From Haliclystus octoradiatus (Eukaryota; Cnidaria; Staurozoa; Stauromedusae; Haliclystidae): a stretch of 64,000 nt of DNA. How positions within the stretch are numbered: position 1 is the stretch's first letter; every line of letters starts with the position of its first letter. Both the position numbers and the translations under genes were made by a program. Below are positions 235 through 63,544 of the stretch, one piece after another. Where the stretch lies: positions 26,704,350 through 26,768,349 of the forward strand of contig OU744450.1 in assembly GCA_916610825.1 (NCBI GenBank), read 5' to 3'. The notes under the pieces were generated by a model that was given only the letters and a program-made list of their open reading frames with translations, had not been told where the DNA came from and searched no databases.

Positions 235-345
235 TTTTTGGGGGGCATGCCCCCGGACCCCTAGATGACGGGGCTTCGCCCCTTATTGTCCCCTTTCAGC
301 ACCAGTCAGATTTTCAGCTGGATCCGCCCCTGGACATTATGACGG
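235..345. repeat. GC-rich dispersed repeat fragment
   Basis: A GC-rich island in AT-rich DNA. The phrase GGGGGGCATGCCCCCGGACC here resembles GGGGAGCATGCCCCAGACCT near 5217-5237, and both are preceded by a run of A and T. Two related copies in one window indicate a dispersed repeat. I cannot assign it to a class. Confidence 0.4.
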
Positions 346-693
346 AAGAGATGGTTTTTACATCGGCACTAATTACGGATACAATACAAAACAAATATGT
401 TATAATTACTGTTACACAAAGAAAACAATGAGACAACGCATAGAAGATAAAATGTTCTATCAGAATGGTCATAGATATTTTAATTTGTATTGTCCAGCAG
501 GTTTTGGTAATGAAAATATTTCCGACTTGAGTTGGCATGAAAACAAGTAAATTAGGTATCGCTCCCAATCCTTAAGTTCATTTTTGTATATATTTATAGC
601 ACCAACATTTTCTTCCCAAGTTCCAGTACATTCCATTGATACAATACAAAACGTAATTACAAATTAATGAAATTTATTCTTTGAATACTAATA

Positions 694-707
694 GGGGGGG
701 GGGGGGG
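694..707. repeat. Homopolymer of 14 G
   Basis: An uninterrupted run of 14 G. It is followed by two copies of ACTTACATAAGT about 25 bp apart. Length may be unreliable because homopolymers are prone to sequencing error. Confidence 0.9.
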
Positions 708-3469
708 CACTTACATAAGTAATTACATTTTTTTACTTACATAAGTGATTTTAAGTGGGACCCTATGATAATGGTAAACAATAAATCTGAATTAATAGAA
801 AGCGGCATTACGGATAGTTTACTATAAAAACTTGTTGCATTACTATTAAACTTTACAAGAATGACTTCTGATGTAAAAAAATGGGCAAAACATCGATATG
901 TCCAGACAAAATGAATATATGTAAGCTAATACACTGGTGTGTTAGAAAGGTAGTTAAAGAAGTTGTATTTGAAAAGTTCTATTAATCCTTACTTCAGCTG
1001 ACTGGATTATGGTCGGTCCTGTAAAAAAGTTTGTATTCTGGTATCAGATGGGGTATTTAAACTTATTCTAATCACATTGTGTACAGGCAGACACCTCAAC
1101 GTGTACTGTTATTAATAGTTGATATATTTGGCTTCATATGTATAAAACAAATTATGAAACATTGTGAATTGGATTGAAGAAGATGAATATAGCTAGCATC
1201 AGTTATGTGATCTTGGACTATACAAATTACTGTGTTTACTATCATTTTCATAATCATTAAAAGTTATTATTTGAAAAGCAATATAGCGTAATGTGTATGT
1301 GTGTGTGTTATCCACCGTGAAGAGTCGAAATGAATGTTATTGTATCATTATCACATAATTCGTAGTCAAGTTCACCCTGAAAGATAAAGAAAAACAATTA
1401 TTCTGGAAAAAATAAAAAATTCAACCCTATAACAATGAGGCCCCTAAAGGGGTGTTTGAAACATGAAACACTGTCAATTTTAACAGAGTGGTTTGAAATA
1501 TTAATGTATTAATTTGTAATGAAATGTGTTATATTTGGCCACCTGAATGGGGCCTTGATGATAGAAAAAAACGGACAAGAGAATGGCTAAGTAATACAAA
1601 CAGTAGCTTATCGCCCCACTTAGCTGGAGACGCAAGTGCAACCTTTTAATTTCCAGCGGATGAGTTTGTTGTTGTTGTTGTTTATTTGCTAATATTTTAA
1701 TCTAATGCCCTGTTTACAAGAGGGGCAACTTACCTGCCTTACCCAGTAAAAATGTGTTGTATGCTTACAATGGCATACCCGAATAACCCATCCACCCTCT
1801 CAAGTTGAATAATTAAAGCCAGTCTAAGCATGCACACTGCACTAGAGATGTGCGAATCCGACCCAAATCCGATCCGATCCAATCAGATCGGATCGGGTTG
1901 GATTCGGGTTGATATTTTTGGTCTTCGGATCGGATCAGATTTGTAGTGATAATTTTGTTCGGATTATTTCGAATTTTGAAATCTGATTGAGTCTTTTGTG
2001 TCTGATGTGTTCTAGTTTCCTTTCAACACGGAAAATAAAGTTTTGCTATGTAAATATAGCGGCTACGTTAATATCCCGTTATGTGATCACTTTTACAATT
2101 GGTCCGATTGACTCGATTGATGTAAAATAAATTAAAATTTTACGAAGGAAATGATTACGATGTCTTGATTAATCGTACATCGTTTCAATGTGTGTTGCGT
2201 CTCATGTTCTCCTCCACAGTTCACTCTCAGTATTATCATAGTTCATAACTTTATATAACGATAGACAGCTTAGTAAGTCAAACATCGTATGAGACTGTAA
2301 ACAAGCATCGATAGATTGAAATAAAATATAAGTACAACGGTGTCAAATTATGTTGGCTAAATGTACATCTATTCGGAAGTTTACATGTTTTACATCTCTT
2401 TGATGCCCTCTGGAATTCGGATTTTGTTATAAAACTATTAGGAATCCAAAATATACCTGATCTTTTAAGTAGCATCTCTATTCTATTTTAATTCATTTTG
2501 ATCAGGCAACTCTATCTGTATATATTACATCTTATAAAGTTATATTATCTCGACCTAGCTGTTATGGCAATGTCAGTTTTTTGTTCTTTTCTGACAGATA
2601 ATAGCCACGAATAAGCATCTTGGGCCATACAGATTATTTGCAGAACATTTTATTTATAAATAAACTATCTGGCTGATCACAATTGAATTATGTAGACTCC
2701 CATAGTTTCAGTCAATGTTCCTAGTTGTAATTGCTGTGGGAATACTACATTTAGGTCTAAACTCCTTAGAAATATTATACATTAATTATTCATACCATCA
2801 GCTCCCAATCAGAATCATTGATAAGTACAAGAATTCCAGGTCGTCTGAATAAATAAATCAAACCCCTTATTAGACAACATTTTTAATGTCTATACAAATG
2901 CTGTAATATGCATAATCAGGGTTGCCGAGCACAATATAGGGCACCTATATATATTACGGTACTACACACATCAGAAGTGGTATGTAAGTAAGGTTTGATG
3001 ATGACAAAGCACTCTCCTTTCCCTTTTATCTTCGGCCATTTTCAAAAGCAAACGATCAAAGAGCATATCATTCGATGGATAATTACAAATAGTTGTAGGC
3101 CTAACAGCTTATGATTTTTCAAGCTGTTCCTTTGCTTTGCATATCGAAAGAAAATATGATTTCACGCACTGACTTCGTTTGGCTTTTCAAAATCAATGGC
3201 TTCTCAAATTTAATTTTGCACATTTTACACATGAACTGATTATGAACTCCTGAACTGTTTTTCGAAGGGGAAATAAATGAACCATCAGATTTAGTCTTTT
3301 GCTTGGTTGTCGATAATAATTTTTGATACCAGTAGATCATTATCTATTGAAGTGGTTCAGGTTACAATGAATATATCTACAAATAATTTTGTTTTTTGGA
3401 TTGGAATTGGATTGACTGTTTTATCACAGACTGAGTAAGCTATTAACTTTTTCACCCGTGGAGTTGGTT

Positions 3470-3617
3470 AGTTGGTTAATGCTTCTAGAACATGGATGAG
3501 TTTAATGGCTGGATGCCATTTCTGACACCAACCAATAGTGCGTCAGGCAGGAATTGAACCCCCTAGACCCTATGGGGCTGAGGCACATTGCCCTAACCAC
3601 TGAACTAAGGCCCATTT
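3470..3617 (-). mobile_element. tRNA-derived SINE copy (family A)
   Basis: On the minus strand the element starts with a tRNA-like head. An A-box-like stretch, TTAGTTCAGTGGTTAGG, is followed about 45 bp later by a B-box-like GGTTCAATTCC. After the head comes ACTATTGGTTGG and a tail with GGCATCCAGCC. The ACTATTGGTT and GGCATCC phrases recur near 3750, 53450 and 54490, which defines a family. The tRNA part cannot be a functional tRNA because it lacks a paired acceptor stem. Confidence 0.6.
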
Positions 3618-3699
3618 GCTGGGTATAAAATGAAAGGATTTCAGTATTGGAGGTCAGATTGCAAGTGTATTTGTATTCTTATCTACATTTTCTTTATTA

Positions 3700-3835
3700 T
3701 CTAGGGCATTTGATCTCAGCCTGCAAGGTCTAGCAGGTTCAATTCCTGGCAGAAGCACTATTGGTTAGCGTGAAAAAACAACCACTACAGTGAAAAAAGA
3801 TCTTCCCAGTTGGTGGTCAAATGATCAATTTAAAA
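3700..3835 (+). mobile_element. SINE family A copy, 5'-truncated
   Basis: This has the B-box-like AGGTTCAATTCC, then CACTATTGGTTAGC and an A-rich tail with CCACTACAGTGAAAAAAG. The same tail occurs in the copy near 54580-54600. The A box is missing, so the copy is 5'-truncated. It lies in the opposite orientation to the copy at 3470-3617. Confidence 0.5.
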
Positions 3836-5518
3836 GAAATGCCTTACACTGTATCTTCCTTCATAAATAGTTCAGGTCTCTCTTTCAATAAATTGTCTTG
3901 CATCCAAGGCAGCAGTCTTCTGATTGTCCCTAAAGATAGTAACAAACCATTCATTATGTTCAGTTACTAATTCATTCCAAATAGCGCTAATACATCGCTC
4001 CCAAAATTGTAAATTATTGTTATGCAAAGGCGCAAAACTTGTTACTTGTCGTTTAAATGACTAAAAACAATTCTGGATTTTGCTTGGATTTATGATGAAA
4101 ATATTCGGGTCGTATTAATTTTGATCTTGAAATTCAGATCGGATTCGGATTAGAGATAATTTTGTTTCAGCAATGCACACTGAGTTTGGCCAACCAAAAC
4201 AAAGTCAGTTGGCCGGATCTTTACTTACTAGCTTTACTACAAAGATCAACTCATGTGATGATACTACAGGGCTCTCAGCCCTCCCCATTGGGCAGAAGTC
4301 TCCTGCTATTTAGGTTCTACTCCCTCTCTCCCGTATTGGGGAAATTTCTCTCCTGCATTTTTCAAATAATGCTCACCTTTTAAATAAATCAATAAACTAA
4401 AAAATGATGCCGTATTTTGTTTGATATCATACGTTTCTCAGCTCTGAAATGCCGAAAAACAACCACGAACAAACCTTGTAGTTTCAGATTTTTTCCTTCA
4501 TAAAATGAAATTGTGTGCTAAATGTGTGAAATGTGACTTATTTTATTATTGTTGACGAGGCTATTATAAAATGGGCATGTTTTATTCTTGGAAATGAGAT
4601 TTAATGTATACAGACAGTAGGCTATGCAGAATCACAAATTCTGATCTGAGATTGTGTAGTGGTTTATATATATTGTATCTTCCGTTTGAATCAGTCTTTC
4701 TCTACATGTAAATAGTCACTGTAATATGTAATCGCCCTCTTTCTATGTCAACCTTTCTTTGTAGAGTAAACATCTAATAAATTACACATGATCATACAAA
4801 ACTCTACACAAAACTCTGTTGGTCTTGAGGGCAATCTAACGTCTAGTAGGCCTACTATTGATACTATATAGCTATATCGTTTATATTATATTTAATTTAA
4901 TTTAACTTAATTAAATTTAACGACCATTAACACAGGATTTGAATCTTTATCAAGGGACAAGGTCAATGACTCAAGGTCACAACGCAAGGTCACGTTAAGG
5001 AATGGACATCAGAGTCGCAGAGAGTGATGATACGATGAACATATACTATATTTGACAATCTAACGTTACCTGATTGTGAGAATCTGTATGTTTAATTACA
5101 TTTCGAAGTGCTTCTTTGTTCTACAATTGTCTGTTTTCCAATTTCATTGTTAAGATATACCTTAAAAGTTGTCAGGAGAAGAGTTTCTTTGGGCCAATTG
5201 TATTTCCAGAAAATTTTGGGGAGCATGCCCCAGACCTATCTTGGTTGCCTCCCCAAAAATTTCCTATTTTTGTCAAACAAGGTTGATTGAGAGTTCTGTG
5301 AATGATATAGTAACTTTAAACAGACCAAACATAATTAGAATTTTATAAACTTTCATTAGTTTACCAGACTGCTTAGTTGATTTGTTTAATTCAATATCAT
5401 GAAATTCATTACGAAGTGTCTATTTGACCGGCAGTCGCAGCCATTATGGATTCAACTGCATGTGCGCCGACAGTCAATTACGTTATTCACTCGATCACGT
5501 GTTTCACTCGTACCAGTA

Positions 5519-5578
5519 TTAGGGTTAGGTTTAGGGTCCGATCACTTGAGCCACCCGTTTAGGGTTAGGGTAAGGGTC
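5519..5578 (+). repeat. Interstitial telomere-like TTAGGG repeats
   Basis: Two clusters of TTAGGG-type hexamers lie at about 5519-5538 and 5558-5578, separated by about 20 bp of other sequence. Most units are TTAGGG with TTTAGGG and TAAGGG variants. TTAGGG is the telomere repeat of most animals. These lie inside an inverted-repeat element, so they need not mark an old chromosome end. Confidence 0.75.
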
Positions 5579-5633
5579 AATTCACGTGATAACCACGCGG
5601 TCGAGATTAATTCATTTCTGTTTCCTAAGCTCT

Positions 5634-5706
5634 CGTCGGTTGGTGTAGCTCATTCGGATTGAGTCTGACTAGTGTGCAGGTTATGCTGGTCCGAGTCCAG
5701 GTCGAT
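5634..5706 (+). repeat. tRNA-like segment (pseudo-tRNA or SINE head)
   Basis: The segment has an A-box-like TAGCTCATTCGG and, 43 bp on, a B-box-like GGTCCGAGTCC. A D-arm (GCTC with GAGT) and a T-arm (CTGG with CCAG around a 7-base loop) can be drawn. The anticodon arm has only about 3 bp and the acceptor stem does not close. It is better read as a tRNA-derived relic within the surrounding MITE than as a working tRNA gene. Confidence 0.45.
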
Positions 5707-6182
5707 CTAAATTATTAATTTATTTTCATTATTTATATTCCAAAATGTTACTGTTCGTTTATTATACGCATGCGTTGGTATCCATAATGGCTGCGACTGC
5801 CGGTCAAATAGTCACCTCACAGCGAATTCATTAATTTGGGAATGTTTTTAGACTTTTAGTTTATAGCTATAGCAAGCATCTTCATCTACCTTAAATACCT
5901 AGCCTGGCCTTAGTAGGCCACTAGGCCTATATTTATTGTAGCAAGCTACCTGAAGTCCTGAGCTACTCAGTATTCAGCTCAGACTGCTCAGTATACTCAC
6001 TAACTCACATTCTTGTCCAGCTGGTAGAAACACTTCATGTTCTTTAACTTTGTCAAATAGTAGTTCTGCACCCCCACTAAAAACAACCAATTGTACAATA
6101 AAAATATAAATTCTTTATCATAAATTCAAATAATAAGTTGCCAATAACATACCTAAATTCTATTCTAATTTTCAAACTAGTG

Positions 6183-6276
6183 GCCGCCATGTTGTATCCT
6201 CGATTTGATTAAATCTAAGTTGGATGAATGCGAGGTTCTATCAAAATGAAGTCCTTTCGCGTCCCAATCATTCGCC
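6183..6276 (+). promoter_or_regulatory. RPL35 promoter with YY1-like motif and 5' TOP
   Basis: GCCGCCATGTTG at 6183-6194 matches the YY1-type motif common in housekeeping promoters. About 60 bp downstream, CCTTTCGCG (from 6252) looks like the terminal oligopyrimidine (TOP) start of ribosomal-protein mRNAs, giving a predicted 5' leader of about 25 nt. No TATA box is placed for this start. The same 12-mer, in reverse orientation, lies in the KDM8/Apollo promoter at 29319-29330. Confidence 0.5.
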
Positions 6277-8496
6277 ATGGTTAGTTATTTTGTTTTCTTA
6301 TAAAGTTTAAAAGTTTATATATCGCTACAATCCTTCACCCAAATTCGTAATTCGCGACACTATCAAGAACTAGATTATTTCGAAATTCATTTAAACCTAA
6401 TATTTTTGTCAATAACATTTATGATTGTTGTTTTAATGCAAGATATTGACCACTGTTTTATCAATTGTTATGACTGTCATTTTGCCATATTGAAACGCAG
6501 TATGTTATTACACAAATTGTGTTTTGTTACTTATTATGTGCAATTTGTGAAACATGATTGTTGTGTGAATTACATTCGTATTTGACAAGGAAAAACTCAG
6601 ATTTGAGGTTGTATGTAGGAAGTTAAAGAAGTTGCAAGGGATATGTGTTTATTATTGGTTAAGCATGATGAAGTAGCTATATTAGGTAGCCAGCTATAAA
6701 TATTATAGTTCTTCTTTTTTAACTAGATCTGAGATTTTATGGACCTAGACTCCCGCTAGCATGATTTCTAAATTAAAAGTTCTAATAAAGCTTTAATTTG
6801 GTTGCATTGGTACAGGTTAAAGTTAAAGCTCACGAGCTGAGAGGCAAGAAGAAGGAAGAGCTCTTAAAACAGCTCGAGGAGTTGAAAAATGAACTCCAAC
6901 AACTTCGCGTTTTTGAAGTATCTGGTGGTGCAGCCTCCAAGTTGTCCAAAATGTAAGTAAAATATATTTACATCAGTTTGGTATTTGCTGAGTGCCGATT
7001 TAATGATTTTAACTAAAATGCTCAGGGTTTTGAGTGACACACTTAGACAGGTGTCTAGAATATATCCCAGTCTGCAAATAATGGCAATTTCGACAAGATT
7101 TCGGGGGCGGCAACGCCGAAACAGGTTAAGGGCGGCAACTGATCAAATTTAACTCCAGGGGCGGCAAAATCCATAATTTCAGGAAAAATTATGAAGAAAA
7201 TGACAACTAATTAATATTTAACTGCCGATTTTTTGATGATAACTGCAGCTTCAGGGGCAGTAGTCACAAGAAAAATGTCCATCTCGGGGGCGCAGCTGCC
7301 ATGCTTTGCAGACCAGAATATATCTCCTGCCGTCTTGGTGTCTCTCTTATCGTCAACGTCTGGAATTATAAAAATTTAAAGGAAATTTAACTGAGTTATT
7401 TAACTGGTGTGGAGTTGGAAATATAGCACATCGACTGGTTATCAGTCCAGGAATGCCACATCATAAAGGTCTATTCTACTGTTTCAAAAGTATGTCTCAC
7501 AGACAGGCTATTGCATCTCCAGGGGATTGACGTTGCGATTTCGTCAGGCTGCAGCAATTGGACAGAAAACTATTATGCACTAGTCAATTTACATCACAGC
7601 CCATCACAGCAAGGGGAATTAACAATTGACCACACAAAGTGTTGACATCAGCAGAAACTTGCTAGTAGAAAATGAAAATGGCTTTTTACTTCATATTTAT
7701 AAAACTGAAAAGAGAATGACATAATTATTTGCAGGCATATTTCTTTTTCTCACGGGGTGCCATTTACTTGAACAAAAATTAATACCCTTGCGATTAAATT
7801 GTTGAAATGAACTACTCTGATGTATTAATGCTATGATGGCTATTTTCCGAGAGCCTCAGGACTGTGACATGCATTGGCTTGGGCGTAACTCTTTAAAATA
7901 GTTGTGAATTTCTCTTGCAAACCAATATTTCTGAATTCTTTGCGACCATTTGGAAAGATAATTTACGACATTACCATAGATACTGCACTATGAAAAAATG
8001 ATATTAGCATATCGATATTCATGACAGAGCATCCCTTCAAGTTTGCTAGTGAACAATTTCATTTAACAATTGCAATTTCTGGTTATAAATCATGTGCTTG
8101 TGCATCTAAAAGCTTTGCTTGTTAATACTATCTGGCACCTAGACAATAGTTGGTATCCTGAATCAAAAGTTTTGAAGTTACGTACATTATTATTCTCGTG
8201 TCAAATTGTCCCCAAATTTAACATATCATTGATATTCATCTATTTATTCTGCTTTATTTTTCAGTAAGGTTGTTCGTAAATCTATTGCTCGTGTATTGAC
8301 AGTCATCAGTCACACACAACGTGAGAATTTACAGAAGTTTTACAAAAACAAGAAATACAAGCCTTTGGATCTCCGCAACAAGAAAACACGCGCAATTAGA
8401 CGTGCATTGACCAAAAACGAAGCCGGTCGCAAAACTTTACGGCAGCAAAAGAAAGACCAGCATTATGGCTTACGAAAATTTGCCGTTAAAGAATAA
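6277..8496 (+). CDS. RPL35: 60S ribosomal protein L35 (uL29)
   Basis: Exons are 6277-6279, 6816-6952 and 8265-8496; all introns are GT-AG and the total is 123 codons plus stop, the usual length of RPL35. Exon 1 contains only the ATG, as in vertebrate RPL35. Exon 2 begins [20 protein letters not shown] and includes [10 protein letters not shown]; exon 3 continues as [13 protein letters not shown] and [18 protein letters not shown]. The protein is the uL29-family component of the large ribosomal subunit, near the exit tunnel. The C-terminal third ([11 protein letters not shown]) is closer to insect-type than vertebrate-type RPL35. Expression is probably under TOP control. AATAAA overlaps the stop and another lies at 8525. 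Confidence 0.97.
7067..7314. mobile_element. 248-bp inverted-repeat MITE in RPL35 intron 2
   Basis: The ends are imperfect inverted repeats: AGTCTGCAAATAATGGCA on the left and, read from the right, GGTCTGCAAAGCATGGCA. The 10-bp direct repeat AGAATATATC flanks it at 7057-7066 and 7315-7324. Inside are three spaced GGGGCGGCAA-type motifs, unusual in this AT-rich intron. The superfamily is not clear; hAT-like is possible. Confidence 0.5.
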
Positions 8497-8524
8497 ATTC
8501 ATTGTAAATGTTCTTCCTTTGATC

Positions 8525-8530
8525 AATAAA
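8525..8530 (+). promoter_or_regulatory. RPL35 polyadenylation signal
   Basis: Canonical AATAAA 29 bp after the RPL35 stop codon. A second AATAAA (8492-8497) overlaps the stop codon and is too early to be the likely signal. Confidence 0.7.
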
Positions 8531-8766
8531 TTCATGGTCTGATTTGGGTCGAAATCATCTCTGTTTGTTTTTCTTGAGTTGTATCTGAAACACCTCAATA
8601 TTCTTAAAAGTGCAACTTGTTATGTAAATAGTAAGAATATCCTTTTCCTTTGCATCATTCTTTCACAGCACTATCACTTTTGTAAATTTTGAGAATTTTT
8701 GTAGGCTGTTGGCTCAATTATCATGCATTACCGTTGTCCTTAGACTCTTTAAAGAAGATCCTAGTC

Positions 8767-8850
8767 TAGCCTGCGTCCAGACTAAAACGCTTCTGAAGGA
8801 AACTGTAAACGCACTTTTCTTCAGAAACGTTTTAGTGTGGACGCAGGCTA
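8767..8850. mobile_element. 84-bp hairpin MITE with perfect 9-bp target duplication
   Basis: Almost the whole element is an inverted repeat beginning TAGCCTGCGTCCAGACTAAA, with arms of about 32 bp. The direct repeat ATCCTAGTC flanks it at 8758-8766 and 8851-8859. Both the TAGC-TGCGT terminus and the 9-bp duplication resemble the element at 27579-27947. It lies about 270 bp downstream of RPL35. Confidence 0.7.
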
Positions 8851-8859
8851 ATCCTAGTC

Positions 8860-9460
8860 TAACAAGTAATAATCGTAGCCCCAATTTGCAGGGCCATCCT
8901 TATGTAAAGACCATGTACGATGTACATGAACCTTGTGTGAACTACATGACAATGACAATAGCTTCCAAACAACATTAGTCAGACCTGAAATTGTTCATAT
9001 TTTTGCAGTAGATTCAATTCAATATTAGTGGACTCTGATTAGTGATTCGCATTATCCTTAAAATTTTCAAAACAAAAACGCCATGACGGACCCGTTTGGA
9101 AGCAGCAATGTAATCAGTATTTTGACTGAACCACATATCATCTACGAGGATATACGATCGCGAATGTGCCTAATACCCTGAAATCGGAACATTATTTAAT
9201 GGCATTGCCTAGCCTCATTTCGGAGGGTCTATCATAAGGTTCGTAAGTAATAGCGCAAACTTGGCTTTCAAAGACTGCAACGACCGATCAAAGCTTCTGA
9301 ACTTCGAATCGCTAGAACGACAACTAAAAATATATTTAATTATTGATGTGTAGAATAACGCACAATTTAGGTCATCTAACTCTTTTGCCTCTCTAAATTG
9401 TAAATTAATTGCAAATAAATATTCAATGGCGTCAGAGCAACTATGGTCAGTGAGTGATGA
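8860..9460. other. Intergenic, no feature seen
   Basis: Plain AT-rich sequence between the small MITE and the large transposon. Short open frames here show no domain or codon pattern that I can recognise. Confidence 0.5.
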
Positions 9461-9466
9461 TAAACT

Positions 9467-11324
9467 TACGGTGGCCCACAACTGCCACTTACAACAACTT
9501 CACTTGCCTGCCACATTAACTTCACTTGCCTGCCACATTAACTTTACTTGCCTGCCACAATAAGAAAATCATGCAGCATTAACTTTACTTGCCTGCCACA
9601 ACAAAAACATGAATTACAACAACTTCACTTGCCTGCCGCATTAAGAACTTACATTACAACAACTTCACTTGTCTGCCACATTAAAAACTTACATTACGGA
9701 AGTGTTGCATTTATTACGGAAGTATATTCTTCAACGCGTCCGTTTGAAAACGAGATGCTGTGAAGAAATTTTTTATTCTGAGCCTCGGAATTCGGATAAA
9801 AAACATGGCCGCTGATTGTCTATTATTTTAGTCGATGCAGTTTTCTGTATAAATATAAACTGTGACTGAATGTTATAACAACTCAAAGATAATCAATAAC
9901 AACCAGGTAAAGCCATCATCTGTTTAATTGCCTAAGAACTTGCATGTTTTTTTTGTTATAATTGCAAATCAGTGAAGACAGACAGTGAAGCATAAATTAA
10001 TCAGATTATCCTGTTATCCATGTAGGCTAGACTTTGTATAATGTACATCCACCCTCTCCCTGATCAACTGCTGTTAATATGCTTGCAGATGACTATTTAC
10101 ATTCACCTTGATACACTAGTTTGTCATTATTAGGGCTCCGTAGTGCAGAGAACAGTCCCATTATTTCATGATTATATATTCATAAGAAAATATATAGTAC
10201 ATTCACGGCCAAGTGTTACACGTTCTTGTATTGGAATAATCAATTAATTAACATGGTAATATGTATGAACTGATAATGACTAATAATTTATTATTTCAAA
10301 GTTAATAAGTGTATACAAGTCACTTGTTGCAATTATTCAATACCAATTTAATATAATTTTTTGTAAGACTTGGTAAATATAACAATCAAATCAAGCTATT
10401 CGGCACGAAGGAATCTTGTAATGGCCGAGTTTGCCAAGGGACTCATACAATTTGGGCAGCTTGATGATTTGAAACCGAAGAAAGAAAGCTTGAAATCACT
10501 GTTTGGTTTGTACTGCCAAAAGTGAACTATCACAAATAAAAATATATAAATTATGGCCTACCAAATGCCTGTGCATTGAAGTATGCTGTCACAAAAATAT
10601 CTTTGAATTGATTGTATGTTTTTCATATGCTGTAGTTGCAACGATATGGGCTTTTCACAGGCGCTGACCAGTGGATGGCATATTGTATGGGCCGTATCTC
10701 CTGTACAGTCATGATTGAAACTGACCATGATGCTCTGAGATGTTTTGTTCCGTGGGACGTGCCGTGTTCCTGTCACCCATCCCAATAGTCCTGCTGATGT
10801 GGCTTCTACAGTTACCGTTTTTTGTTCTGATTCTGAAGTGTCAACATCCATTGGCTCCGATTCTGCTGCCGGTGTGTCTTCGTAAACATATGCAACTTTT
10901 CTCGATGGTATACTGCAGACTCCTCCAATGTACGTTTTGTAGATACAGGAGAAGGAGATGAATAACATGGTTGCAGAATAGATAATATGTAAATGACAGA
11001 TGGCTCAAATTAATCGTTCCCTTTTGGGAGTAGAAACAGTGATTTGAATCTTTCTTCTTCGGTTTCAGATCATCAAGCAGCCCAAATTGTGTGAGTCCCT
11101 TGACAAACTCAGCCATCACCAGACTCCTTCGTGCCGAAAAGCTTGATTTGATCGTTTCCGCTATCGCCTTCTTATTCGATTCTGCTATGACTCATGTGTA
11201 GCCATGCTCCATTATTTCATCCATTCTGTTCTTCATATCATCCATTATCTCACTAAGAATTTGTTTTTCTTTCTCTGCCAGGGCTTCGTCATCACCATCT
11301 GTCACTGGACATGGCTCGAAAATA
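9467..11324. repeat. Left inverted arm of the IS3EU-like element
   Basis: Its outer 220 bp hold several copies of CTTGCCTGCCACATTAACTT-like units, possibly subterminal transposase-binding repeats. The inner part is the 3' portion of a HECT-like gene. The 136-codon open frame inside differs from its right-arm partner at only two visible residues, so the arms are recent or homogenised. The right arm has one extra subterminal unit of about 37 bp. Confidence 0.8.
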
Positions 11325-11590
11325 CAGTTATATGCTAAATCGTCCATGAACTGCTCCGGTGGACCACCATGTGCAAGACAAACTGCCACAACTTCTCCAC
11401 ACGTCTGATAGGTTCTATTACTGAATGTATGTCATCGAGAAGAATGGTATTTTAAAGAGCTCTTCTCTGATTTTTAATATACAAGAGCTCATGAACTCTT
11501 TGCCCATGGCTCCTTGATCAATGCCAGCTTCACCAAAATACTTGACAGCCTTGACAGTGATTCCTTGCTCTTGGAAAGGAGGCTAGTTGT
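10558..11590 (-). pseudogene. Transposon-borne HECT-like domain gene, broken (left copy)
   Basis: Read on the minus strand in successive frames, the order of motifs follows a HECT-type domain. GEAGIDQGAMGKEF (about 11540-11500) resembles the HECT opening motif. LAHGGPPEQF (about 11375-11345) follows. Then come a short hinge, MAEFVKGLTQFGLLDDL (about 11116-11066), and a C-terminal part with WVTGTRHVP and HTICHPLVSAC in 10558-10968. This layout matches the G2E3/HECT-like genes found as dispersed copies in many invertebrate and fish genomes. Stops and frame changes separate the blocks. I do not see the catalytic cysteine placed with certainty. A ubiquitin-ligase role for the intact ancestor is inference. 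Confidence 0.55.
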
Positions 11591-13043
11591 AGACATCCAT
11601 ACAAACAAACAAACTGCCAATGTCGAGCTGAATGTTATGTCACGTCATGGGGGAACGCACCGTAATTACTGATCATTCACTAGAAAAATTTGCTCCGCGC
11701 CCTAAATATTTCGAGCTTTGCTATCAAGTCACAAAAAGTTTTTAAAAAGATGAAATCAAACCTCTGAACCTTTATGTATGATTATCCGAAAAGTTATCTA
11801 CTTTGATATTTTTTGGAATTCAAAGGATTTGTATCCTAGTCCAGCTGCTCCTGATCCTTACATAAAATACAACAGCAACAACTATACTTACGAGAATTAA
11901 TCACAAAATAGTTTGGCCTCAAGTTATTTTGGGAGCAATATTTAGTCTGTGGTATCTCTCACCTGGAAATGGACCCAAAAAAATGACACGTCCCAGTATG
12001 GCCATCATTTGGGGGTTACCCTGCGTGTACGTAGTATATGATAAGCACATCACATTACAATGAAACAGTAGTCTTACACATAGAGTATATACTGTACTTG
12101 ATATTTTGAATATATTTCATTTTTGGGTTATAAATATTGAATTTATAGAGGGTAGCAAAATTAAATTTTTTAAATTGTATATTAAATTTATATGACTGGT
12201 GATCCGATGATGAGAAAATGTGTAGTGGTCATTACTTTAATTAATTGCAAGTCTATATTCATATGAATTGTATTGCTTCACAGTCTCAGTTTTTAGTAAA
12301 ATTTATACCGACTATAAATCTTTAAATGCTATTGCAAATTTATGTAGAAATCTTAAACAATATATAAATTGATTGAATGATGAGGAATACTACCCGTCAT
12401 TTCTGGCGAATCCCATTAACTTTTTGTATAATTCCAATCCTGTTTTCCAATCATGGGCAGAGTTCTCCTGGCTTTAGTTCATTGCATAAGTAAAATACTC
12501 TTCATATTCATCCTCTTGAAGCGGCTCCAGTATCTGGGTTTTACAAAAAGCAATGTTATCGATACTCGGATACTCTTTGGCAGTCCACCTGATTGCTCAG
12601 GAAGATTGTACGATGCATCAGGTCTGCCAGCAATAGTTTGATACTTGGAATATCTTATGTAATGCGTATTCCAATGTGGCTGTATCAGCTGGCTTGCATG
12701 TCATCAGCTCTGTTATATATGTCTTGCTCTTCAAGATCCGTAAAGAAATTGATCCACTGTACTCTTGCAGCAATACCATTTTCTGTTCCCGAATCTGTTA
12801 ACTTCATTGGAGTACACCTAACCTTTTGATTGCATCTAGGTAAAACTGTGCTACAACTTGCGGTGAATTGTTGGATCGTGTGACGTTAAGCCATACACCT
12901 TCCTGCTCCAGCCATCAATACAACCATGGATAGGAAACCCAAAAGGTTTTAATTTATCATAATCATCACAGTGCCAGGCATAGTTTGGGCCAGGGCTGGT
13001 ATATACTCGTCGCTTGAGCTCATGCGCCCTCCTAAGTGAGGTA
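11325..13043. other. Spacer between the inverted arms
   Basis: This single-copy core of the element holds the upstream part of the HECT-like relic (to about 11590), about 850 bp of AT-rich sequence without recognisable coding, and the integrase relic from about 12440. Coding remnants all read on the minus strand, consistent with one original transcription direction. Confidence 0.6.
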
Positions 13044-13051
13044 CTATTTTC
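12440..13051 (-). pseudogene. DDE integrase (rve-like) relic of the IS3EU-like element
   Basis: A minus-strand frame ending near 12851 carries YTSPGPNYAWHCDDYDKLKP followed by GFPIHGCIDGWSRKV, the first catalytic-Asp region of eukaryotic rve-type integrases. After a frame break, TDSGTENG (second Asp region) and WINFFTDLEE follow near 12780-12700. There are several stops and a probable internal deletion between the two catalytic regions. The 5' end is cut exactly where the right inverted arm begins, so the N-terminal part of the integrase is missing. Confidence 0.7.
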
Positions 13052-14943
13052 GAGCCATTTCCAGTGACAGATGTTGATGACAAAGCCCTGGCAGAGAAAG
13101 AAAAACAAATTCTTAGTGAGATAATGGATGATATGAAGAACAGAATGGATGAAATAATGGAGCATGGCTACACATGAGTCATAGCAGAATCGAATAAGAA
13201 GGCGATAGCGGAAACGATCAAATCAAGCTTTTCGGCACGAAGGAGTCTGGTGATGGCTGAGTTTGTCAAGGGACTCACACAATTTGGGCTGCTTGATGAT
13301 CTGAAACCGAAGAAGAAAGATTCAAATCACTGTTTCTACTCCCAAAAGGGAACGATTAATTTGAGCCATCTGTCATTTACATATTATCTATTCTGCAACC
13401 ATGTTATTCATCTCCTTCTCCTGTATCTACAAAACGTACATTGGAGGAGTCTGCAGTATACCATCGAGACAAGTTGCATATGTTTACGAAGACACACCGG
13501 CAGCAGAATCGGAGCCAATGGATGTTGACACTTCAGAATCAGAACAAAAAACGGTAACTGTAGAAGCCACATCAGCAGGACTATTGGGATGGGTGACAGG
13601 AACACGGCACGTCCCACGGAACAAAACATCTCAGAGCATCATGGTCAGTTTCAATCATGACTGTACAGGAGATATGGCCCATACAATATGCCATCCACTG
13701 GTCAGCGCCTGTGAAAAGCCCATATCGTTGCAACTACAGCATATGAAAAACATACAATCAATTCAAAGATATTTTTGTGACAGCATACTTCAATGCACAG
13801 GCATTTGGTAGGCCATAATTTATATATTTTTATTTGTGATAGTTCACTTTTGGCAGTACAAACCAAACAGTGATTTCAAGCTTTCTTTCTTCGGTTTCAA
13901 ATCATCAAGCTGCCCAAATTGTATGAGTCCCTTGGCAAACTCGGCCATTACAAGATTCCTTCGTGCCGAATAGCTTGATTTGATTGTTATATTTACCAAG
14001 TCTTACAAAAAATTATATTAAATTGGTATTGAATAATTGCAACAAGTGACTTGTATACACTTATTAACTTTGAAATAATAAATTATTAGTCATTATCAGT
14101 TCATACATATTACCATGTTAATTAATTGATTATTCCAATACAAGAACGTGTAACACTTGGCCGTGAATGTACTATATATTTTCTTATGAATATATAATCA
14201 TGAAATAATGGGACTGTTCTCTGCACTACGGAGCCCTAATAATGACAAACTAGTGTATCAAGGTGAATGTAAATAGTCATCTGCAAGCATATTAACAGCA
14301 GTTGATCAGGGAGAGGGTGGATGTACATTATACAAAGTCTAGCCTACATGGATAACAGGATAATCTGATTAATTTATGCTTCACTGTCTGTCTTCACTGA
14401 TTTGCAATTATAACAAAAAAAACATGCAAGTTCTTAGGCAATTAAACAGATGATGGCTTTACCTGGTTGTTATTGATTATCTTTGAGTTGTTATAACATT
14501 CAGTCACAGTTTATATTTATACAGAAAACTGCATCGACTAAAATAATAGACAATCAGGGGCCATGTTTTTTATCCGAATTCCGAGGCTCAGAATAAAAAA
14601 TGTCTTCACAGCATCTCGTTTTCAAACGGACGCGTTGAAGAATATACTTCCGTAATAAATGCAACACTTCCGTAATGTAAGTTTTTAATGTGGCAGGCAA
14701 GTGAAGTTGTTGTAATGTAAGTTCTTAATGCGGCAGGCAAGTGAAGTTGTTGTAATTCATGTTTTTGTTGTGGCAGGCAAGTAAAGTTAATGCTGCATGA
14801 TTTTCTTATTGTGGCAGGCAAGTAAAGTTAATGCTGCATGATTTTCTTATTGTGGCAGGCAAGTAAAGTTAATGTGGCAGGCAAGTGAAGTTAATGTGGC
14901 AGGCAAGTGAAATTGTTGTAAGTGGCAGTTGTGGGCCACCGTA
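13044..14943. repeat. Right inverted arm of the IS3EU-like element
   Basis: Near-perfect reverse complement of 9467-11324. It interrupts the integrase relic at about 13044, which shows that the inverted copy was joined inside the gene. It includes one additional subterminal repeat (about 14815-14855) relative to the left arm. Confidence 0.8.
13070..13811 (+). pseudogene. HECT-like domain gene fragment, inverted copy (right arm)
   Basis: The plus-strand copy of the 3' part of the HECT-like relic contains MAEFVKGLTQFGLLDDL near 13253-13303 and the 136-codon block with WVTGTRHVP and HTICHPLVSAC at 13401-13811. It lacks the upstream GEAGIDQG region, which lies outside the repeat. It differs from the left copy by K/Q and T/M replacements. 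Confidence 0.55.
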
Positions 14944-15109
14944 TAAACTAGGTGGAAAAATTTACGTGAGTGAGTCTGTGGCAAATTATAAGCTTGAAAA
15001 TGCGCCAAAGTTTTAAGAAATCCTTCGTAGAGATGGACTTGTCAGCATATTGTAAAATATTTTCTTAAACTATTATAATCATCAATTTTTCTTCAATATG
15101 TTAATATTA

Positions 15110-15265
15110 TTTTTGTTATTGTATTAGGCTGTATTTGTATAAGTTGTATTATTTGTGAATGTAATCCCCTGTATTTGCCTGTATGATATTTGAGTTATAG
15201 CGCATTCGAGCTTTTTGGATATACGCTATACCAAATAAAGTATTATTATTATTACTATTATATGT
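15110..15265 (+). mobile_element. 3' tail of a non-LTR retroelement
   Basis: The stretch ends with ATAGCGCATTCGAGC, then CGCTATACCAAATAAAGTAT and an (ATT)n tail. Tails of this form occur at the 3' ends of CR1-like LINEs and their SINE partners in marine invertebrates. No coding part remains. It directly follows the IS3EU-like element. Confidence 0.4.
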
Positions 15266-17330
15266 TATAATATGACGAATAAATCAAATTAAATGCGATG
15301 TGAAAGCGAGAAATCATGCTCCGCTTTGATCATGCTTGATGATGCTTTCTGCTGATTGCTCCGCTTTAACGTATGGAAATGGATAATGGACATTGCCAGC
15401 GTAGGTTTCACTGTTGGCCACCGAATGCACAGTACACGCCTTTATGCTCCATGAACAAAACACGCAGGTTGCAATATGTGGATGTATATTAGTGCGCAGA
15501 GGGTATGCATAAGCCCAAACTCATAGCGTTCTGAATTGCAATACAGTTTCAGTTAATCAACTATTTGATGAACGTCACTACGACTACGTCATCAGGTCAA
15601 TCATTTTTTGCAGAAGGTGTGACATGCCTTCTATAGTAGAATTTATCGGCTTCTTTAATTAATCAATTCAGATCATGAATACTGAAGCTATATTATTATC
15701 ATTTATTAATCAAATACGTTTTACTCTTAATCAAATAGGCATTTTAGTCTCTTACCTTTTAATTGATAAAATGGCGAAAAACGACAAATGAAAATAACGG
15801 TTTACTAATGACATTAAAAAGGCGTTTATCGGTTACGTAAAGGAAATTGAAACATTTGAACAATGCTGACTACATGAATTCGAGAAAATGAATTTCCTGA
15901 GCTTACTGGGAAGTTTCAGATGGTAATAAAGTACAATGACGTCACGATCAAAACATCATTTGCCACAATTGCAAATCAAAGGCACGCCCTAATAGCGCTG
16001 TTTCTTTTTGAAAAGCAAAACTTTCAATGAGATTATCTTACCAAGATAGAAATCGGCACAGAGGCATATATCCGTTCTCCTATACCTCCCTCCCTCGTAC
16101 TATATGCTATCAAAACAGAAAGGCGTCCTAGCATGACTGGATTCATTTTTAAAAAGGTCTGTTAAAAATCCTCATGAACACATGATATTCTCTAGTTAAT
16201 TTTGGTTAAATACACTCGAAATTCATTATTACTTAATCTATTATATCATATAGTCATAAGCCACAGGGAAGTTTCAGTTCAAATAGATACAGGCTTTACC
16301 GAACATTGGAGCTCACTGCAGCAAAATTTGCAGGATAAATGTACTTGTTTACATCCTCATCATTATATTATTCACTGATGAGGGTAACAAAGTAACTAGC
16401 CTGGTGCGATGTAGCCTAGAGTGTCCCAAGGTCCTGTAAGCGTATAGAGACTGTTGTAAAGAGGGTCAGGATCCACAATCACAATCACGTTTATGGTTTC
16501 ACGGGCTTCCGAGCTATCGTTTCACGATCAACTGCTTGAAGCCATGGAAAGATATTTTGAAAGTGCAGGATCACGCTTCACGAATATTTAAACTGGAAAT
16601 TCACCGGAAAAAATTTCTATAATTTTATTTTGTGAATCTCAGCAATTATTTTTCTGACTTTGGAATATCTAAAAAGGCCATCATTCAGGTCACAAGGAAA
16701 TACCCGTTATAGTCTCTATACAATGAGCTTATTTGAGTAGTAATAAGTTGTAAAAGGGTATGTGACGTCATTGTTACAACATTTTAGATCACTGACCTAG
16801 AAGTATTCTCATCCCTCCTACTAGTCGTTGCACCTTATTATTATTATTATTACATATTCTATCTTTATCAGTATAATTTATACGAATAAAACAGACTATT
16901 CCCACAATTATAATATCGCTTTCAACAGGGAAATCCTCATCTAAAATTGCCATGAATAAAAGACCATCGAAGGTACAATTAAGGTCCAATGGGTTCAATG
17001 TGTTTGACCTGATACAATAATGCTAACAAATAAATAGATTGCTTTGTTGTTTTTATTGTGATGTGTTTTTGCTAATAGCAGCTCATTTCTAAAGTAAAAC
17101 GTGATAATATATAATCTATTTCTTTCTATAAATATACAAATCTATTTTGCTATATATAATTGTATACAATTTTACATAAAAACCTTTTTGTTAACCAGCA
17201 ACTTAAAGGTATGATTATTAATCTCTTCTACTAGTGTGATCTTTATATATATGTGATCTTTCTTTTCATATACTGTACAATATTTTTCTTTTGAATTATA
17301 TTATTAAAATTAAAAATTCGATCTATGATG
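15266..17330. other. Intergenic, downstream of the Ras-like gene
   Basis: Nothing recognisable except a short ATT microsatellite near 16837. Part of the segment next to 17330 is presumably the 3' untranslated region of the Ras-like gene. Confidence 0.5.
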
Positions 17331-19016
17331 TCATGCAAGTCTTTTCATTGAAGATTTCTTTAACATTGTGTTTGTGTTTGCCGTGAAACAAGCTGTAAGT
17401 TTCATCCAAATTGAACGTCTAAATTTCACCCATGAAGATTTACGAACAAGTGGTCGATAATCCTGGGTTGTTTCTTCAGGTAACAAATGAAATACTGATT
17501 CTTCGATCTGTTCAAGTAATAGATTAAATACATCTGTTACATTACTGTTCGATTTAGCCGATGTTTCGACTGGTATTATTAACGTTGAACTTCCCCAGTC
17601 ACATGCTGATGCAATCGCTTGTTCTCTAGAAACCCTTCTTGGTGACGTTAATCGATCACATTTATTTGCAACTAATACAATAGGAATATCTTTATCACAT
17701 TTTTCAAGACGAATTTCTTGATAAAGTCTTTTTGCTTCATCTAATGATTCAGGGTCATCGACAGCATACACTAATAAAAACCCATTTCCATTATGAATCG
17801 CATGTCGTCTCATAGCAGGGAATTGATACGTACCAGCCATATCAAATATTGTTAAATCACAGAAGTTACTATTATGTTCAATAAATCGTCGATGATCATC
17901 TTCAATAGTGGGTTCATATCCTTCATCAAAACGATCTAATAAAAACCTTTTAATTAAAGCTGATTTTCCAACTCCGCCAGCGCCAAATACAACAATGTTA
18001 ACAGCTGGGATCAAAATCTATAAAATAAACAAGAAAATAGAAGGAACATTAATTTCAATAGAATCGATCACATCTATTCAAAGAAATATGGGAAAATAGG
18101 CCATGTTATGATAACCGTTATCGTAAACACAGAACGTAAAATAATTACATCAGTTAATTAATGAGGAGTATATGGAAATGCGACGTGATGGTTCGAAATC
18201 TGATAACACATACATTCCGTTTGATGGTATATAAATATACAAATGTGATAACTATCAGATGAGATCAATGGGTAGGGCATATACATCGACATGATAAAAC
18301 AAACAACTGCTTAACAACTACAATTGAATTCATCAGTTGGAACACACCACAATAAAACACATAATGTGATTAGACATAGTGTCGCACCCATGCAGAGTTC
18401 AGAAGACAAGCAGGCGACTGCTCAACACAAAACACCCAAGACACTATATACAGTATCTATATAAATGTACGGAGATCGATAAGATTAACCTATAAAACGT
18501 ATAAAATTGCAAGATGTTCAATTCTCTTACGTAAGACATGTCCACGAGACAGTTAATGGCAAAGGATATAAAATAGATATAAATATATATAAACGAACCG
18601 ATTGCACCTTATCATGTAATAATCATAATACAATAAATCGCCGAATGTATTATAATATTCGTTCGATTATCGCCACACTAGAACAATGTGATCCATGCTT
18701 TATCAAATGTATAAGCAGGTGCAAAAGTGTAGTAAGTGTATTAAGTTCAACTACGTAAAATTCAAGCAATGATGGGGGTGTATCGAATTATTAGCATACG
18801 GAGGAATCAAGTCTATTAAATGTATGCCTGCGTGTTGTGACGAATCGTAAACTACCGTTAGCAGTGGAAGGCATAAATGAAATAAAAAAATAGATAAACT
18901 AGTGCAAATACTTATACGCAATTCAATCGTATAGTATATTACAACCATTAGTAGCAATTATAATAAAGTTAAATTACCTGTCGTCTTCTTTGCGAAGCAC
19001 TTCTCCTTAATCTCAT
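17331..19016 (-). CDS. Ras-family small GTPase, Di-Ras/RASD-like
   Basis: Two exons on the minus strand: exon 1 is 19016-18978 (MRLRRSASQRRRQ) and exon 2 is 18017-17331; the intron is GT-AG in phase 0 and the protein is 241 aa. G1 is GAGGVGKS (25-32), the switch I Thr is T50 in PTIED, G3 is DMAG (72-75), G4 is NKCD (131-134) and G5 is ETSAK (164-168). TYQFPAMRR after G3 resembles Di-Ras (SHQFPAMQR) and RASD/Rhes (NHPFPAMRR). The residue equivalent to Ras Gln61 is Thr76, as these families also lack Gln, so slow GTP hydrolysis is likely. The basic C-terminus ends KKSSMKRLA with no CAAX box, so lipid anchoring is not expected by prenylation. Assignment within Ras is uncertain. It is divergent from the Bok-like gene. 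Confidence 0.88.
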
Positions 19017-21745
19017 GTTGGTATAATATATATATATATATATAGGAAATATAAACAAGTATTTCTGTTGTGTAAATGCCAATGACTGTTGTTGTCTGTT
19101 GGAGTAATGTCTAACCTTCTCTCTTGCACTAAGTTTAACAATAAAACGACAACTGAACGGAAAGACAAGATATTCATTTGTTCAGGGTAATAGATCGACC
19201 ATCTGATTGGTCGGTTGATTCAAAATGACTGATAACAATAGCACTTGTAAATACACAGGCATGCCGATAGATGGAGCTATAGAAAATCTCGTCATCAATT
19301 ATGCTTACGTACAGAAAATCAACTAAATCAAGAAAAAACAAGACAAAAAAATGATCATGCCGACAGTCTGGTAGAAATAGCTAGTTTCACAATTTGTGTA
19401 GGTTGTACATCATATCTTAACAATAAAAAGACGGTTTTAAGATTGTAAAAATGAATGAAACGAAATCGTTGCTATATATTCAATACAAATATTATATATA
19501 TATAGGGGTGTCCAGAGGAACACTATGAAATATTACTAGAACTCATGGAGAGTTTTCACAAGAAGAATGAGTTTCATATCCCTGTTCTGAACTGAGAACA
19601 CAGTGGAAATATAACGAAATCCAAATACCATGAAAACCATGATAAATACACCTTGATGGAATCCAAAGAATTTCCAAAGTAAAGGTAGGCACTATTATAG
19701 ACCTTGTACATATATCATGTGTGCACGCATAATATATATTGTACAATTGTATTTTTAAATAAATTGAATGCGTTTAAAGTTAAAAATAGATTATTCAAGG
19801 CAGAAATAAATCCACGCAGAACATGGTATTAATTTCAAATAAATTCGTTGAAATGAGGATAAGAAATGATAAGTAAATTATCAGAAAAGCGAAAGATCTA
19901 AAGATAGCAGGAAAAAATTTACGCGTTTCATGAGATAACATTTTAGGAAAGGAAAAAGAAAGAGGGACACTACCGACCGACACACAACATGTCACGCTAT
20001 TGTATCACGTGGGAAATCAGAAGAACCAATCATAAACAGTCGAACAGAAATCAATCAAAACTGACACTGTATAGTAGCCATTAGTAACAAAAAGAGCATG
20101 GTATCAATAACATATTTATTTCTAGTAATAAATAACAATAATAATAACAGCAAAATGGCAATGTGTGTATCTCCATGGTAACTATGATTTGAAACATAAA
20201 CACATCATAGCAGAAATAAATAGTACTGTTTCCCAGGCTTGTAGAGTTATTGTATTATACAGTACTGGATTGAGAGGGTTTGAAGTTAGCAGCACAGAAC
20301 TGTATGATGGGGGTAGCTATACAATATAGAGCAAGCAGGCTGTATACTAGTTTTAACATGCCTATTTGACACGCGGTTAATTCGTGATTCAAACCTTTAC
20401 TTGAAGTAATATTCTACAAATAAGCTAATATCGTGACAATTATATATTATTTCCTGATTGAATTTCACGGAGGGTACACAAGGATAGAAAAAATATTTAA
20501 AAATGAGTAATTAAATGAACATTGTTTTGAAAACAATAAAAATAAACAGTTAGGTAAACAACACAATCTATACTGCTTTGTTGTTGGTAATAAGTAGCAA
20601 TTAAATGTCTACCGTCGCCCTCGCATTGCTAATTTGATAGCTTTTATTAGGTTGCTTTTAAATAGAAAGTTCTAGATTTTTTGATTGATTATTTTCATAA
20701 TAAGTTTTGTGTAATTTAATTGCTTGTTAGCGATAAGACAATCATTAGCCTGCATTAACACAAAGTGAAATCTTAACAAAAAGTATATAATATTGTCTAT
20801 ACTAATAATGTAATAAATTGGTTTGAGAATATATTGTTTGACATCAGTTTATTTGTATAAATCCATTCAAATCGTAACTATATGTATCAATGCATAGACA
20901 TTTAGGTCTGGCTCATTCATGAGATGATCATACACAGTAGTGATATTTATCATTAATTATTAAAAGTAAACTGGAAGGGGTAAAATTATGTAAATTCAGT
21001 TATGCCTCTAAAAGAATGAAAATAAATTATATGTTACTACAGGTATTCGAATGTTTGATACCGCAATTTGGTTAGTACACATTAGAGCAACATTTGAGTT
21101 GTTTCAGCATTGTTCTAGATGATCCACGTGTGCTAATTTGATCAATTCAATTCCATCTTCCTTGTTTCGCTTTTCCGTCAACGTTTCAGGATCAGGAAGG
21201 TTGAATGGGAGGGAAGCGAGGGTAACACACGCCCTTGACAAGGAAGTAGATGTGCGAATAACATGAACACAAGAATATAAATAGAACAAAGATAAAATCC
21301 GCAACAGCTTTGTATTTTTGTAAATTTTTGAGTAGATAATAATAACGATGGACATTGACTGATAAAACATAAAATACATTAAAAAAAGAAAGGCAAAAAT
21401 CTAAGTGATATATTGCACGGCAACACAATTATTGTCAGAGGCAAGTAACGGGATCATTTATTCAAGGAATTACCATGAAAAAGTAAGACAAAACAACGAC
21501 ATTACCAACAGATCGCAAAGGATATCCCCATTTGAATAGAACAGGACAAGAAGCAAATCTCTAATGAAACATGGGCTCACCAATAAGTAAATACACACAG
21601 AGTGAATCACAGCCAGAGCTTTCAAGAGAGTATACAGAAGAAGAAAAAATTATTTACAGAGCAAAGCAACTCGCGTGAATTTTACCTACAAACTATCCTA
21701 CAATAAAAATACTACTATAAAAAGGAAAGAAATATATATATTACC
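19017..21745. other. Divergent intergenic region between the Ras-like and Bok-like genes
   Basis: This 2.7-kb AT-rich segment must hold both promoters. Short AT dinucleotide runs occur near 19025-19045 and 19490-19505. The first lies just upstream of the Ras-like ATG and could serve as a TATA-like element. No additional gene is supported. Confidence 0.4.

Positions 21746-32935: not shown

Positions 32936-63544
<30,609 letters not shown>

Follow-up and report, generated by a model that had tools for sequence, protein, structure and literature searches.

Among transposons with long inverted arms, Galileo, a member of the P superfamily in Drosophila, has long, internally repetitive arms whose length is altered by deletion and by tandem units, as well as deletion derivatives without transposase (PMC3573991, PMC3688188); its end units have been shown to be transposase binding sites (PMC3688188), and its target site duplication (TSD) measures 7-8 bp (PMC4168063). 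The Mutator/Foldback element Tm1 of root-knot nematodes has fold-back-like arms and a gene inside a family member (PMC3169594). In the IS3EU group, the termini are TA..TA, the TSD is usually 6 bp and the lack of an HHCC zinc motif before the core is listed as a trait, in an account that does not separate IS3EU from GingerRoot (PMC10045372); a further account gives the termini as TAYGG..CCRTA and, in the parts drawn on here, describes TET-bearing IS3EU families of rust fungi only as having terminal inverted repeats (TIRs) longer than 30 bp (PMC12730594). Here, we describe a 5,477-bp fold-back element in a 64,000-nt stretch of the genome of the staurozoan Haliclystus octoradiatus (GenBank GCA_916610825.1, contig OU744450.1, positions 26,704,350-26,768,349; hereafter, the window). 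Very probably, it belongs to a long-armed (fold-back) family of IS3EU-type DNA transposons as a non-autonomous copy shortened by deletion, and it was probably moved in trans.

The window family has in common with IS3EU, to the extent that the cited portions characterise that group, an integrase-like DDE transposase, TACGG..CCGTA termini and a 6-bp TSD; it differs in the length of its arms (~1.9 kb in the window element; ~5.4 kb in a larger relative on contig 11, called C11) and in the presence of a gene in the arms. Likeness to Galileo, judged by the sections of the papers cited above, lies in the long, internally repetitive arms and in the deletion derivatives without an intact transposase, but the transposase is of a different class, the TIRs of Galileo reach ~1.25 kb, its TSD is 7-8 bp as against 6 bp here, and its longest arms are found in non-autonomous copies, whereas here they belong to the copy with the transposase frame (C11). 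Neither a THAP/P-type transposase nor the 7-8 bp TSD of the P superfamily was found: a Pfam scan of the C11 protein yielded no THAP domain at E up to 1 and identified rva_4 instead. The excerpted description of Tm1 shares with the window family the fold-back-like arms and the gene inside a family member, but reports a Phantom/Mutator-type transposase and a 9-bp TSD. The bacterial IS481 and IS3 models match the C11 transposase weakly (NCBIfam, E 2.6e-6 and 1.2e-5, both far under the model cut-offs), but here the host is eukaryotic and the arms are long. The fold-back architecture is thus known elsewhere, in Galileo and Tm1; its form in IS3EU was not found described in the open-access literature searched, a search that did not extend to Repbase.

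The element spans positions 9467-14943 of the window (minus strand, after its transposase remnant), with termini TACGG..CCGTA: the left terminus, TACGGTGGCCCACAA.., starts at 9467 and the right terminus, ..CCACCGTA, finishes at 14943. Copies of the 6-bp TSD, TAAACT, flank it at 9461-9466 and 14944-14949. Comparison of the window with itself returned an inverted repeat (I1) of 1,794 nt, gap-free and of 99% identity. In the global alignment, the left arm (9467-11324, plus strand; 1,858 nt) and the right arm (13045-14943, minus strand; 1,899 nt) are nine substitutions and one 41-nt repeat unit apart; given this length and identity, a chance origin of the inverted arms is excluded. The arm ends consist of tandem subterminal units, ACTTGYCTGCC, six in the left arm and seven in the right (seven and eight in C11), an internal repetition expected of a fold-back element, and the arms are predicted to be able to form a hairpin. 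An earlier reading of the window, made from its letters without database searches (the sequence-only reading), had given these exact coordinates, the mirrored termini and the TAAACT duplication, all of which are borne out, as is the near-identity of the arms that it had noticed. It had also assigned the element to IS3EU, which stands on the rva_4 transposase, the TAYGG..CCRTA termini and the 6-bp TSD, and had described it as non-autonomous and hairpin-capable, which agrees with the broken transposase and the long inverted arms.

The element is one of many in the 262-Mb assembly (33 contigs). A 234-nt end probe had at least 41 matches (40 of 81 candidates were scored); many of these face each other in pairs at a distance of ~5-6 kb, so the termini are shared by other genomic copies, as the sequence-only reading had anticipated. 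We compared 20 regions and later 11 more (L021-L049 among them), each extracted from the assembly. Perfect 6-bp TSDs occur in all 19 examined copies in which both ends were recognised; this count omits L021, L026, L038, L039, L043, L047 and L048, where an end is missing, degenerate or outside the extracted piece (L021 lacks the right terminal bases, L026 is incomplete, L038 and L039 show one end), as well as copies that were not extracted. The same 19 copies, chosen by these ends, carry the termini TACGGTGG..CCACCGTA (TAYGG..CCRTA type). Two near-identical copies, L040 and L025, are 1 and 4 bases from the window copy over 5,477, yet their TSDs differ from its own and their flanks cannot be aligned with the window flanks, which indicates that the whole fold-back unit moved recently. 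Arm length ranges from 1.48 to 2.2 kb across the 15 copies with arms compared, while L023 and L024 have both ends but rearranged, shorter arm blocks. The long-armed build belongs to the family and is not private to the window copy; a single private rearrangement is rejected, as fold-back copies and the right-hand joint (see below) recur at many loci. Two of the copies, L022 and L037 (C5:28752673-28762944), are separated by ~100 bp, and each has a TSD of its own (TGATTG and ACAACT).

The larger relative, at C11:3813906-3833055, has the family ends and its own TSD, AAATAG. Its coordinates are given here in the concatenation of L041, L042 and L049, where it runs from 307 to 19456. Once a nested retrotransposon is subtracted, it is ~12.6 kb long with arms of ~5.4 kb, which pair in blocks: 336-1403 with 19383-18319 (97.9%), 1507-2059 with 11556-11000 (93.2%), 2042-5368 with 10770-7441 (98.2%), and 52 nt at 5612-5663 with 7482-7431 (96%). 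Between the arms lies an intact transposase open reading frame (ORF) of 392 codons on the minus strand (L041:6280-7458). The Pfam scan matched positions 1-175 of the 194 of rva_4 (PF24764; E 2.7e-35), which we take to be the domain covering IS3EU transposases. Residues D147, D206 and E240 are the putative catalytic triad, judged by alignment. The same scan, at E up to 1, listed no zinc-binding integrase domain; no search for the HHCC motif itself was made. The nested element is a long terminal repeat (LTR) retrotransposon, presumably BEL/Pao-like, inserted in the right arm, within the gene that the arm carries, at C11:3825154-3831736 (concatenation 11555-18137) with GTCA on both sides, two identical 583-bp LTRs and a gag-like frame (DUF1759, E 4e-12). 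Two other rva_4 families with open frames, L045 (C7:8384739) and L046 (C10:4396085), show no long arms to either side of the transposase over ~3.5-4 kb; L046 does have a separate inverted repeat of ~930 nt (89%) further downstream.

Comparison with C11 yields a deletion map of the window element. The match to the C11 left arm runs up to window position 11550 (C11 2131; mirror position 10683) and resumes at 11555 (C11 5489), so that ~3.36 kb of C11-type left inner arm is absent at the left deletion junction (11550-11555). The segment just outside it, 11325-11550 (plus strand), is the rest of a longer ancestral left arm whose right-arm partner was deleted; it also matches the C11 right arm (concatenation 10913-10683). 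On the other side, the core stops at 13044 (C11 7102), and from 13045 the match is to the C11 arm from 10914 outwards; at this right deletion junction (13044-13045), ~3.81 kb is absent, a block that includes the right inner arm together with transposase codons ~1-119. The third deletion is internal to the gene and measures ~102 bp, with its junction at 12755-12757 and a 3-nt overlap (CAC); it removed codons ~219-252, including E240, and is not present in L036 and L028. What is left of the transposase (12393-13048, minus strand) consists of fragments of codons 120-392, interrupted by stops and a frame change, and is still recognised as rva_4 (Pfam, E 4e-8). The interval 12200-13200 had no match in a phage collection. 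Among 131 matches to the 392-aa transposase (105 of 133 candidates scored), none above 45% identity reaches codons 1-118 except C11 itself, and the first transposase pieces of the derivatives start at codon 119 or 120; another family, at four loci, shares 45% identity with the C11 transposase over codons 22-386. When six derivative remnants were compared with C11, the ratio of non-synonymous to synonymous substitution rates (dN/dS) came to 0.35-0.40 in five (216-219 codons) and to 0.54 in the sixth, which aligned poorly; these values are consistent with past constraint and no more.

A search with the right-joint pattern found it at 23 genomic places with 0-2 mismatches, and the reversed pattern, as a control, at none. 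Of 30 loci checked (L021-L049 and the window), 19 have the left joint and 18 the right. Four copies have sequence that crosses the position of the left joint without a break, namely C5:19460, C4:11085 and, in both of their arms, C11 and C8. By sequence comparison, the arm/integrase joint in the window is a deletion breakpoint, because C11 is continuous on either side of it and because it recurs at these 23 places.

To compare arms between copies, we aligned the 30 arms of 15 copies, leaving out the rearranged or partial L023, L024, L026, L027, L032, L038 and L039. Taking six copies as the reference set, we found 18 substitution sites that split left-type from right-type arms. The left arms of the window copy, L025, L040, L021 and L029 are right-type at 15 of these sites and left-type at the three innermost (11287, 11295 and 11310 in the window, plus strand), which lie beyond the inferred conversion tract; that of L022 is right-type at 14 of 17 sites and left-type at the inner three. 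The right arm of L036 is left-type at 8 of 18 sites, a pattern that suggests exchange in both directions between arms. Over arm positions 1500-1790 (window 10966-11256, plus strand), the two arms show no differences at 291 positions in the window copy, L025, L040 and L029, and one in L021 and L022, as compared to 15-20 differences at 275-277 positions in the six reference copies. In the arm tree, the six window-group left arms nest among right arms (98/90); 11 of the 25 inner branches of that tree are drawn open. Partial homogenisation by gene conversion is the best reading of the arms; it is one of two options that the sequence-only reading had offered for their likeness and the one that the site pattern in 15 copies and the difference-free tract uphold.

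The other option, youth of the element without any conversion, would accord with the near-identity of the sister copies, but it is distinctly improbable: the arms of L030, L031, L034, L035, L037 and C1:7489 are those that differ over positions 1500-1790, while over the inner 69 nt the converted and unconverted sets alike show 3-5 differences. Recency, which the sequence-only reading had offered as a possibility, holds for the spread of the window copy (1-4 differences from its sisters) and not for the formation of its arms. That reading also had the window copy become a fold-back element when its 3′ end was copied, inverted, in place of its 5′ end, with the join inside the integrase gene. The right arm does abut the integrase remnant at 13044/13045; yet, in C11, arm sequence extends ~3.5 kb past the joint on one side and, on the other, the integrase gene extends to its start codon, the joint is far from unique to this copy, and C11 and C8 have arms without it. 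We consider such a replacement very improbable and reject it, and even the direction of copying appears to have been the opposite, at an earlier time and another joint. The right arm of C11 continues unbroken into the transposase start, while its left arm terminates in a detached copy of the beginning of that ORF, ~28 nt long. Because of this detached copy, the simplest inference is that an old inverted copy of the transposase-5′ side was placed on the 3′ side in the C11 lineage. The inverted duplication that made the arms is older than the deletion junction in the window.

If the inner ~3.3-kb arms of C11 were instead the product of a second inverted duplication at a later time, arms of only ~2 kb would have been present in the ancestor of the window family. 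The higher identity of these inner arms (98.2%, against 93.2% in the neighbouring block) and their full-length occurrence only in C11, among 40 of 1,312 candidates scored, speak for this; it is nevertheless unlikely, as inner-arm sequence directly adjoins the arm in C5:19460, C4:11085 and both arms of C8:5636, and C4 also keeps a block further in, up to C11 position ~4943. The palindrome is known from assembled sequence alone, and the sequence-only reading had named a false palindrome as a danger; with many loci bearing TSDs of their own, and with fixed differences that tell the arms apart in unconverted copies, an assembly artefact is close to inconceivable and is rejected.

For a deletion derivative moved in trans, the following course can be proposed. 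The founder deletions would have occurred once, in a long-armed ancestor; a C11-like transposase would bind the tandem end units and move the derivatives in trans, with integrase-type chemistry joining strands 6 bp apart; the arms would exchange sequence through pairing during break or gap repair, by which the outer left arm would have been overwritten by right-arm sequence in six of the 15 copies compared. Mobilisation by a C11-like transposase is probable from the sequence relations, and, by analogy with Galileo, we infer that the end units are its binding sites. Several observations weigh against this account. With a divergence of 6-10% from the derivatives and with the nested retrotransposon in its arm, C11 may not be the helper that moves them. 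Identity is also lower in one of its arm blocks (93.2%) than in the rest, which may mean that the inner arms of C11 were renewed. In outgroups, most of the arm sites carry the right-type letter, so that left-type is mostly the derived state; conversion therefore rests on the nesting in the tree, on the left-type left arms of L028, L033 and L036, and on one derived site (arm position 1829) that is left-type in the window group. Moreover, the arms of L021 keep 17 differences in 1,261 positions further out and the numbers of terminal units in the window copy are unequal, which makes the homogenisation partial and not uniform.

The arms also hold a gene. Decayed copies lie at 10558-11119 in the left arm (minus strand; a 92-aa part at 10841-11119, by eye) and at 13250-13811 in the right arm (plus strand; a 92-aa part at 13250-13528, by eye). 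In C11, the right arm has an ORF of 390 codons that runs into the retrotransposon insert, and a 363-codon relative of it exists in C4 (L048). A phmmer search of the C11 arm ORF against PDB gave as its only hits two HECT ligases (E 0.29 and 0.89); HECT was found neither for the C4 ORF nor for two profiles, and Pfam gave nothing for the C11 arm ORF. The likeness of the arm gene to HECT-type ubiquitin ligases is therefore at most a putative resemblance. It is a tentative idea, and a doubtful one, that the autonomous form is an IS3EU transposon with a second gene, possibly a relative of HECT-type ubiquitin ligases, in each ~5.4-kb arm, where duplicate cargo would be kept uniform by arm-to-arm conversion and the single-copy centre would hold the transposase only, while deletion derivatives would lose cargo and transposase but still convert their arms. 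What counts against it is that no intact pair was seen: in C11, the right-arm copy stays open only as far as the retrotransposon, and the left-arm copy is interrupted, with one stop in its matched portion and no ORF of 120 codons in that arm. Each arm in the window further contains an inverted repeat of ~102 nt (90%, plus a further stretch of ~23 nt) at 10381-10504/11034-11156, with a mirror pair in the right arm; it lies over a duplicated piece of the arm gene, and a similar pair occurs in C11.

The insertion site (9320-9466 and 14950-15079) is within a dispersed repeat, and the joined flanks match paralogues of it at scattered places, of which four cover most of the query (67-72%). An empty site with one TAAACT, as envisaged by the sequence-only reading, is approached by the paralogues at C10:4413471 and C4:32301661, which run through without the element; at the target, however, their divergence is too great for a single TAAACT to be recognised. 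Elsewhere in the window, there are tandem arrays at 22527-23258 (122-bp period) and 51628-52831 (40/51-nt spacings), a long TAT/ATT-type array at 35841-37000 (GC 0.19 in the 36-38 kb bin) and a dispersed ~100-bp repeat family, 65-93% alike and on both strands, at 36969, 39801, 42301, 50118 and 50219, and inverted near 26657.

Transposon groups that are not related to one another have very long arms, the role of which is unsettled. Here, a single genome combines a long-armed copy whose transposase frame is intact with deletion derivatives at numerous sites and with arm pairs homogenised to different extents, in which the origin, the shrinkage and the upkeep of fold-back arms can be traced stepwise in IS3EU.

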